Below are positions 53,612 to 62,834 of a stretch of 64,000 nt of DNA, piece by piece. Made by a program: the position numbers and the translations under genes. The DNA comes from Acidobacteriota bacterium (GTDB lineage: Bacteria > Acidobacteriota > Aminicenantia > Aminicenantales > Saccharicenantaceae). The DNA lies in assembly GCA_028749115.1 (NCBI GenBank), contig JAQURD010000002.1, forward strand, positions 228,129-292,128. Direction: 5' to 3'. The notes under the pieces were generated by a model, which searched no databases, was not told where the DNA came from, and worked only from the letters and a program-made list of their open reading frames with translations. How positions within the stretch are numbered: the first letter of the stretch is position 1; each line of letters starts with the position of its first letter.

Positions 53612-55093
53612 TCAATCAGCATAAAACTCAATCATCTGTCGCACTGCCTCCAGACAGACAGGACAATAAGGTTTCTTGCCTTTGGTGAACATAATACAGT
53701 CAACTGCCGGGCGGTAAAGTCCAGTAGAAGCATAACCGGCTCCTTCGAAAACGCCGACCTTTCCAGCATACCTGCTTTTGGCCAGAAATTCTTCCACCTT
53801 CAGGCCCTGTTCTAAAGATAGTTTTTCGCTTTCAGCCTCAAGTCTGGCTACTTCTTCCCGCGGAGCACCTTCTCTTTTCATTCTGGCTATCCGTTCATTA
53901 AGTTCCTGCCTTACTTTTTGATAACTCAGATCCATACGGTCAAACTCTTCTTTTTCCCAGGGAGTCGGAATGGCCATCCCCGGAGATAAAAGCTTTTTCC
54001 ACTTAATATTATCCGGATTCAGCAGAGCAGTAATATTTGGCTCAACTGGTTCTATCCCCCGGGGATAGAACTCATTATAAGCTACCTGAGAGGTGTAGTA
54101 TTCATCGGCCAGGCCGGTAAATGAATGACCAAATTCATGCAGCATTAAATATTCATACCATTGATTGTCGGTCGTAAAGGTACAATAGAGGTTATAAATA
54201 CCACCGCCTCCGTAACGGTTGTGATTGACCATGATCATCAGAGCATCATAAGGAACGATAGCAGCTAGATCCCGCAGACGGCGGTTATCATCTGTCAGCA
54301 GATAACGATCTGAGCCAAAAGAATCGAAGCTGCAGCCAAGAGCAGTCTGTCTGAACTGTCCGTAGCCCGGCTCATCACAACCGCTTTCAGCCGAGGGCTT
54401 AAATACCCCGTAAATATTGAACTTACTTTTGAGGCTCTTATATGGCTCCTGCGAAAAAAAGACAGCGACAAATTTATCAAGGTCCTTCTTCAGTTTGCCT
54501 TCTTCACTGGCGGTATAGCCTTCAGCCAGAAAAGCCAGATCTACCTTTTCCGAGGCTGGACCGTTTTTTAAAAGCTCAAAGACTTTAACACCCGGTTCCA
54601 GTTTCTCCTTTATGATAAAGATCGAAGCCGGATCTATTTCCTGAGAAAAAATTTGATGGAAACTATTATCTTTATCCCTGACTTCAATGGCCAGGCTTAT
54701 TTTATGACGGGGACATGGAATCAAAACGGTTTCATGAAAGGCTCGTTTAATGCTCTTCAAAGCTTCGTCTGTTGTTTTATATTCACCAAAAAGACTGTCA
54801 TAAGCACGGGCATAAATTAATTGACCGCTGGCCTGATCGTAAACTCTGGCACAATAGCGCCCCCTCATAAAAGGATCAATCAGATTCTTAACTGGCCCGG
54901 CCCAGCTGCCCTGATCGTAGATCTTATCCAGGGCGATTATTTCCTGCTGATTATCACCCAGATGATAATAATCAATTCTCATTGTCCGGTCGAAGAAGAA
55001 CTGGTTAAAATTAACTTTCTCCTGATTTTCAGCCACCAGAAAAAAGGGAGTGAAAATTAACAATAAAAGAACAGAAATAATAATCTTTTTCAT
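53612..55093 (-). CDS. Peptidase M64 (IgA peptidase) family secreted metalloprotease
   Basis: Signal peptide; DLAFLAEGYTASEEGKLKKD; zinc site LMLHEFGHSFTGLADEYY. Confidence 0.92.
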   Translation of the reverse strand: MKKIIISVLLLLIFTPFFLVAENQEKVNFNQFFFDRTMRIDYYHLGDNQQEIIALDKIYDQGSWAGPVKNLIDPFMRGRYCARVYDQASGQLIYARAYDSLFGEYKTTDEALKSIKRAFHETVLIPCPRHKISLAIEVRDKDNSFHQIFSQEIDPASIFIIKEKLEPGVKVFELLKNGPASEKVDLAFLAEGYTASEEGKLKKDLDKFVAVFFSQEPYKSLKSKFNIYGVFKPSAESGCDEPGYGQFRQTALGCSFDSFGSDRYLLTDDNRRLRDLAAIVPYDALMIMVNHNRYGGGGIYNLYCTFTTDNQWYEYLMLHEFGHSFTGLADEYYTSQVAYNEFYPRGIEPVEPNITALLNPDNIKWKKLLSPGMAIPTPWEKEEFDRMDLSYQKVRQELNERIARMKREGAPREEVARLEAESEKLSLEQGLKVEEFLAKSRYAGKVGVFEGAGYASTGLYRPAVDCIMFTKGKKPYCPVCLEAVRQMIEFYAD

Positions 55094-61031: not shown

Positions 61032-62834
61032 ATGAAAAAGTCCTGTGTATGGGTGATTTTACTGATTGCCCTGGTCTTGTGTGCGGCTGCTGGCAAACAA
61101 GCCATCAACATTTCGTCCGAGAACGTCCTATCGCTCATCATGGATGAATCGGCGAAGGAAATGGAGATTCAACTGCCGGCGGCGAGTGTAGTTGAGTTAA
61201 AGCTTCAGGCTAATCCCTCGACTGGTTATGTTTGGGAAGTGGCGAATCGGAAGGAGATTGAAGGAACGATCACGATGATTGAGGAGCAGGATAGTTTATG
61301 CCGGGCAATTCCTAAGTTTGAAGCTGCTTCTGGGAACATTCAACCGCTGCCAGGTGCACCGCAGATGCAGGTAATACGTTTTGTAGGGAAAAGAGAAGGG
61401 GCGGTAAAGGTTCAGCTGGTATTGCATCGTCCATGGGAGAGTGGCTATTTTAAGGCGAAGACTGTTTATGTGCATTCTGAGGGCGCCTACATAGGTGATA
61501 TCAGAATACTGCAGAACAAGGTGAAGAGTGCGCCGGTGGTCAAGCCGCCGAAGGAGGAAGTGATAGTAGCTACCCTGCCATCCCATTTTGACTGGCGTGA
61601 ACAGGGCAAGGTAACCTCGGTCAAGGATCAGAGGAATTGCGGCAGCTGCTGGGCCTTTGGTACCACAGCTGCGGTCGAAGCTGCTGTTCTGATCAAGGAT
61701 GGGATTACTCGTGATTATTCGGAGCAATACCTGGTATCATGCAACAGTGAAGGTTGGGGTTGTAATGGTAGCTCAGGCTGGCCGTTGGACTATTACTACA
61801 ACAAATATATTACGGGTGAAGCCGGACCCGGTGCCCGGCTGGAAAGCGACTTTCCTTACCAGGCAGCTGATGTGCCCTGCAACCCTCCTCATACCGCCTA
61901 TGAAAGGATTGAGAGCTGGGCTTATGTTGATGATGTTCCTGACAGTGCTATCCCTGCCCTTGTTCATAATCCAACCATTGCCCAGATCAAGCAAAAGATT
62001 CATGATTATGGCCCGGTTGGCACCATGATTGATGCCACTGGCTGGAGCAGCTATACAGGTGGTATCTGGACACGTGCTGGTAGTCAGCTCAACCATATTG
62101 TTTGCATCACCGGCTGGGATGATAGCCAGGGTTGCTTCTATGTTAAGAATTCCTGGGGGTCGAGCTGGGGAGAGAGTGGCTATATCAGAGTGGCTTATGG
62201 CAGTTCTCTGGTCGGTAGAAATTCAACTTATGTAACAATCCCGAGTGCTCCTGTTATCACCACTCAGCCAACTAACCAGACCGTAAATGTTGGTCAGACG
62301 GCGACTTTCACCGTAGTAGCGATTGGCACAGCTCCGTTAAGCTACCAGTGGTATAAAAATGGCACAGCCGTTAGCGGTGCCACCGCTGCCAGCTACACCA
62401 CTCCTGCCACAACTCTGGCCGACAATGGTTCGCAGTTCTATGTGGTAGTCAGTAATTTGCTGGGTAATGTTAATTCCAATACCGTTACCCTAACCGTTCT
62501 ACCTCCTCCGCCAGCTGCACCTACGGATCTTATAGTTATTGGTCATTGCTATGAAGAGGAACTCCACTGGCAAGATAATTCAGATAACGAAGATGGATTT
62601 ATTATCTACAGGAAATCAGGAAATTATTATTTGGAGTGGGACCGGGTGGGACCAAATGTAACTTCCTATTGGGACATAGAACTTCCGTGTGGATTGTTGT
62701 GGTGCTATATGGTAAGAGCTTTTAATGAGAATGGAGTTTCTGGACCTACTATCGGGCGTTGTGCTAAAACAACCTTTTGTGCATCCTGTCAAGGAGGCTT
62801 TTTAAGGAATGAGAAAACTGAAAAGAAAATGTAG
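61032..62834 (+). CDS. Papain-family (C1) cysteine protease with N-terminal chagasin-like (I42) domain and C-terminal Ig-like and FN3-like domains
   Basis: I42 loops NPSTGYVWEV, GAPQMQVIRF, RPWE; C1 VKDQRNCGSCWAFG, LNHIVCITGWD, VKNSWGSSWGESGYI; ITTQPTNQTVNVGQTATFTVVA Ig-like. Confidence 0.92.
   Translation: MKKSCVWVILLIALVLCAAAGKQAINISSENVLSLIMDESAKEMEIQLPAASVVELKLQANPSTGYVWEVANRKEIEGTITMIEEQDSLCRAIPKFEAASGNIQPLPGAPQMQVIRFVGKREGAVKVQLVLHRPWESGYFKAKTVYVHSEGAYIGDIRILQNKVKSAPVVKPPKEEVIVATLPSHFDWREQGKVTSVKDQRNCGSCWAFGTTAAVEAAVLIKDGITRDYSEQYLVSCNSEGWGCNGSSGWPLDYYYNKYITGEAGPGARLESDFPYQAADVPCNPPHTAYERIESWAYVDDVPDSAIPALVHNPTIAQIKQKIHDYGPVGTMIDATGWSSYTGGIWTRAGSQLNHIVCITGWDDSQGCFYVKNSWGSSWGESGYIRVAYGSSLVGRNSTYVTIPSAPVITTQPTNQTVNVGQTATFTVVAIGTAPLSYQWYKNGTAVSGATAASYTTPATTLADNGSQFYVVVSNLLGNVNSNTVTLTVLPPPPAAPTDLIVIGHCYEEELHWQDNSDNEDGFIIYRKSGNYYLEWDRVGPNVTSYWDIELPCGLLWCYMVRAFNENGVSGPTIGRCAKTTFCASCQGGFLRNEKTEKKM

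Follow-up and report, generated by a model that had tools for sequence, protein, structure and literature searches.

Chagasin-type (I42) domains fused N-terminally to bacterial papain-family proteases as probable tethered inhibitory prodomains

Free chagasin and related inhibitors of cysteine peptidases (ICP, MEROPS family I42) have proteases of family C1 as their targets. The known chagasins inhibit with picomolar Ki, e.g., 7.6 pM for cruzipain, and carry the loop motifs NPTTG (L2), GxGG (L4) and RPW/F (L6); changes in these loops can raise the Ki a hundredfold or more, the substitution T31S being near neutral (Ki 11 vs. 7.6 pM with cruzipain) (PMC2607524). Bacterial chagasins have been proposed to act on the proteases of the bacterium itself or of its host, and according to a 2009 review only the inhibition of one eukaryotic cathepsin had been verified (PMC2784779). 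Multidomain prokaryotic C1 proteases were set aside in a papain-family survey of 2023 (PMC10380794). A literature search, conducted mostly without subscription papers, found no description of an I42-C1 fusion; domain-architecture databases probably list the combination.

Such a fusion is encoded in the stretch of DNA analysed here (the window), 64,000 nucleotides long and belonging to an Acidobacteriota bacterium. The gene is a single stop-free frame on the forward strand, and its originally predicted coordinates and strand proved exact. The features of the gene and its product are as follows:

61032-62834, + strand: gene of the I42-C1-Ig fusion protein, 600 aa (open reading frame, Pfam)
61032-61091, + strand: Sec-type signal peptide MKKSCVWVILLIALVLCAAA (by eye; conserved in two paralogues)
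61179-61466, + strand: Inhibitor_I42 (chagasin) domain, aa 50-145 (Pfam PF09394, E 1.7e-11)
61212-61229, + strand: inhibitory loop L2, NPSTGY, aa 61-66 (motif of PMC2607524)
61350-61370, + strand: loop L4, PGAPQMQ, aa 107-113, in the fusion-typical GAP form, not GxGG (alignment)
61428-61439, + strand: inhibitory loop L6, RPWE, aa 133-136 (motif of PMC2607524)
61473-61574, + strand: I42-C1 linker, aa 148-181, poorly conserved and modelled with low confidence; proposed cleavage region
61575-62213, + strand: Peptidase_C1 (papain) domain, aa 182-394 (Pfam PF00112, E 6.1e-45)
61629-61631, + strand: oxyanion Gln200 (sequence)
61647-61649, + strand: catalytic Cys206, CGSCW (sequence)
62094-62096, + strand: catalytic His355, LNHIV (sequence)
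62148-62150, + strand: catalytic Asn373, KNSWG (sequence)
62250-62501, + strand: Ig domain, aa 407 to about 490 (Pfam Ig_3, E 1.5e-8; PDB phmmer)
62511-62771, + strand: FN3-like tail, aa 494-580 (without Pfam confirmation)

Pfam searches clearly indicated both principal domains, with scores of 44.7 bits for Inhibitor_I42 (curated cut-off 27.2) and 154 bits for Peptidase_C1 (curated cut-off 20.7). The profile match and the full Gln-Cys-His-Asn active site place the enzyme in peptidase family C1A, and the original prediction of a complete C1 protease holds, with Gln200, Cys206, His355 and Asn373 all present; a Foldseek search against the PDB matched cruzain and other structures to the C1 part only (E 1e-17). 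The residue after the oxyanion Gln is Arg201 (61632-61634) in the window copy; the position is occupied by Gly in 47 of the 53 fusions and in both paralogues of the window copy. The C-terminal part had been described as Ig-like plus FN3-like; one Ig domain was found by Pfam (Ig_3), and the FN3 assignment gained no Pfam match at E ≤ 5, the sole hint from the PDB being a weak match to neuroglian (E 0.043). Pfam revealed no I29 prodomain in the window protein at E ≤ 1, so the usual mark of an I29 zymogen is missing, and an NCBIfam search of the protein returned nothing useful. A second secreted peptidase gene lies nearby in the window (53612-55093, − strand) and by eye resembles the family M64 metallopeptidases.

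The genome contains exactly three I42 domains, each N-terminal to a C1 domain and each on a different contig; a fourth C1 gene is without I42. The three fusion proteins are secreted and comprise 600, 679 and 1152 aa; the I42-C1 parts of the two paralogues are 86% and 64% identical to that of the window, and the C-terminal parts are shuffled among the copies, with one to three Ig domains and a Kre9-like domain. Contamination was considered as the source of these genes and rejected, the copies lying on three long contigs (251 kb, 343 kb and the window's own of at least 292 kb). I42 was absent from all 33 other genomes of the same family that were searched, and the module was therefore probably acquired; the clade of the C1 tree that holds the three copies also contains, from outside this genome, one Myxococcota bin and one Fibrobacteres bin.

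The fusion is not confined to this lineage. Named genomes were scanned with an alignment of four sequences, which gave 78 loci; a rescan of these and of same-phylum loci with profile HMMs revealed 57 open reading frames in which C1 comes after I42, or about 54 once duplicates were removed, in about eight phyla. They belong to Chloroflexota, Myxococcota, Acidobacteriota, desulfobacterial lineages, Bacteroidota, Pseudomonadota and Fibrobacterota, with one further fusion in a bin labelled cyanobacterial. The domain search called for originally thus recovered the architecture many times over, and its supposed rarity had been overestimated. The order of the domains is constant, with I42 first; both Pfam families were matched in all 53 fusions of the alignment, each of which matches the I42 profile at E ≤ 0.01, and I29 had no match in them at the same threshold. 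Within phyla the module is patchy: 9 of the 400 Chloroflexota genomes gave strong matches and 1 of the 331 Myxococcota genomes gave fusions (E 1e-60), but single genomes carry about ten copies. Two Myxococcota genomes (G430 and G433) each hold about eight to ten, or more, I42-C1 paralogues, whereas according to the literature most prokaryotes have one to three C1A genes. Most relatives with the fusion are metagenome bins, a circumstance that could favour an assembly or gene-calling artefact; however, the stop-free single frame, the three copies on three long contigs, and the recurrence of the architecture in an isolate, Levilinea saccharolytica KIBI-1, and at about 50 other loci make such an origin extremely improbable.

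On the C1 tree, the fusions cluster strongly. The label "fused" requires four changes, at least two of them forced by well-supported branches, and therefore one gain with losses and a few gains both fit; a single origin was considered and is not established by this tree.

The claim that all three chagasin loop signatures are present stands for L2 (NPSTGY) and L6 (RPWE); L4 (PGAPQMQ) keeps the invariant first Gly and has lost the GG of GxGG. Ser63 of the window protein is equivalent to the position of T31S in chagasin. Among the fusions the L2 Thr (T64 in the window) is kept in 45 of 54, compared with 29 of 35 standalone I42s, and the L2 Gly (G65) in 54 of 54; the L6 Arg and the L6 Trp/Phe are each kept in 49 of 54 fusions vs. 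32 of 35 standalone domains. L4 shows a different picture, with GxGG in 3/54 fusions vs. 15/35 standalone I42s and G[AGS]P in 24/54 vs. 6/35; because standalone I42s also vary there, GxGG was treated as typical of the family and not as defining it, and family membership rests on the profile match, not on L4. In the conservation alignment (53 fusions, about 45 effective sequences, 102 I42 positions), the 13 loop positions hold 9 of the 14 most conserved positions of the domain (hypergeometric P 5e-7).

Some Myxococcota fusions deviate. Three of them (L100, L105 and L152) have a degraded L6 motif and intact catalytic residues, and cis-inhibition may have been lost there. In another (L075:2225-3340), the active site reads CASYW, the catalytic Cys being replaced by Tyr, and the loops NPSTGH and RPWE are kept; the protein is possibly an inhibitor-only decoy.

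The prodomains of papain-like enzymes help folding, and the I42 domain might likewise act mainly as a folding chaperone, or as a structural Ig-like module, having ceased to inhibit its own C1 domain. The general role of prodomains, the departure of L4 from GxGG and the degraded L6 of some members are in line with this explanation, but the L2 and L6 residues responsible for inhibition rank with the best-conserved positions of the domain and are kept on a par with standalone I42s, which makes it quite unlikely.

AlphaFold2 modelling, run on the fusion alignment, gave a pLDDT of 92.6 and a pTM of 0.90 for the window protein, and 90.9 and 0.90, respectively, for the protein of Levilinea saccharolytica; the linker had a pLDDT of about 50-70. 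Calculation indicates that random placement of I42 relative to C1 would limit the pTM to about 0.62, and that a pTM of 0.90 requires a mean error of about 4 Å over the non-C1 residues. The I42 domain is thus predicted to dock on the C1 domain with confident placement in two distant members of the group, and, since the linker is disordered, this placement must come from the interface. The conserved loops and the known I42-C1 complexes (PMC7863939) point to the active-site cleft as the docked surface. Of the contact foreseen in cis between the loops and the active site, the models therefore bear out the confident seating of I42 on C1, and the loops would presumably reach the cleft. The linker is 30-59 aa long in all fusions but one and never shorter than 30 aa; the exception, and the sole long linker seen, measures about 245 residues and belongs to the fusion L104:2202-4574.

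These structural data also bear on the alternative that I42 inhibits in trans, being set free or reaching out to act on other cysteine proteases (paralogues, or enzymes of competitors or a host), with the fusion only ensuring co-secretion. Free chagasins do work in trans and bind broadly (PMC7863939), some genomes contain many paralogues, and the fusion lacking the catalytic Cys has kept its loops. Nevertheless, the confident intramolecular placement in two models, the constant domain order with a linker minimum of 30 aa, and the location of I42 in the usual prodomain position, with no other prodomain seen, leave trans action unlikely.

Unfused genes show the same two domains side by side. In 10 of the 31 genomes of the same phylum (Acidobacteriota) that have I42, an unfused I42 gene lies no more than 4 kb from a C1 gene that is likewise unfused and matches clearly; the expectation calculated from C1 counts and the sizes of the genomes is 0.12. 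The gene order varies, I42 being located before C1, after C1 or convergently. Export signals, read by eye from the N-termini, agree in all 11 readable I42-C1 pairs: both partners are exported in eight, two of these from the named-genome scan, and neither in three, all of one family (Fisher P 0.006, the pairs not being independent). At one locus (L056:3718-5757), two standalone I42 genes stand in tandem after a C1 gene, all on one strand. Six of the unfused C1 partners (L055, L060, L061, L066, L129 and L137) share a short N-terminal segment, TFxVG...LxxLxG, which looks by eye like the propeptide of cathepsin B; Pfam found no propeptide in those scanned.

Taken together, it is likely that the N-terminal I42 domain is a tethered inhibitory prodomain of a secreted papain-family protease and is released by cleavage of the linker. 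The original suggestion of a self-restrained secreted protease with I42 in place of I29 agrees with the missing I29, the linker, the loops, the AlphaFold models and the gene neighbours, and is itself inferential. Support comes from the domains, the catalytic and loop residues, the conservation of the architecture, the predicted interdomain placement and the unfused I42/C1 neighbourhood; counted against it are the L4 without GxGG, the degraded L6 of three fusions, the missing catalytic Cys of one and the picomolar binding of known chagasins, which calls for an activation route.

In the proposed mechanism, I42 would dock after export on its own C1 domain, and L2, L4 and L6 would presumably enter the active-site cleft in the way known for free chagasin acting in trans. 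The disordered linker of about 30-60 residues would give slack, so that the interface rather than the tether would provide the restraint. Given the picomolar Ki of known chagasins, an activation route must exist, with I42 removed or degraded; activation would consist of a cut in the linker and the subsequent removal or dissociation of the inhibitor. The Ig modules would anchor or target the enzyme. The identity of the docked site with the active site, inhibition in cis, the way of activation and the function of the Ig modules are our inferences.

The recurrence of the arrangement in about eight phyla suggests that holding the bacteria's own proteases in check is what bacterial chagasins evolved for; the recurrent fusion and the unfused, export-matched gene pairs both point to these proteases as chagasin targets. 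We lean, by a little, towards a stronger statement: that bacteria have evolved a class of papain zymogens with a true, tight-binding I42 inhibitor in the role of the classical propeptide, and that regulation of the bacterium's own C1 proteases is an ancestral role of bacterial chagasins. If true, the fused and gene-pair forms would together reveal this ancestral role in bacteria. The question of what bacterial chagasins do is testable with one recombinant protein, e.g., from the cultured Levilinea saccharolytica.

The window protein shares with free chagasin/ICP the Pfam domain family and the L2 NPxTG and L6 RPW motifs, and differs from it in that its I42 is covalently joined to a C1 protease, on the N-terminal side, and that its L4 has the form GAP(x) instead of GxGG. 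Like the zymogens of the I29 or cathepsin B type, it is a secreted C1A protease with a (here proposed) inhibitory N-terminal segment directly before the mature domain, but the prodomain is an Ig-like I42 of unrelated fold, and no I29 was found. The unfused C1 and I42 gene neighbours of Acidobacteriota have the same two domains, probably in the same partnership, and share a compartment; unlike the fusion, they are two separate proteins, and the protease has a short N-terminal segment of its own. The nearest conceptual precedent is human cathepsin F with its cystatin-like N-terminal domain, where a papain-family enzyme likewise carries a protein-inhibitor fold at its N-terminus (PMC11171618); cathepsin F, however, is eukaryotic, keeps a normal propeptide, and its inhibitor fold is that of cystatin, not chagasin.
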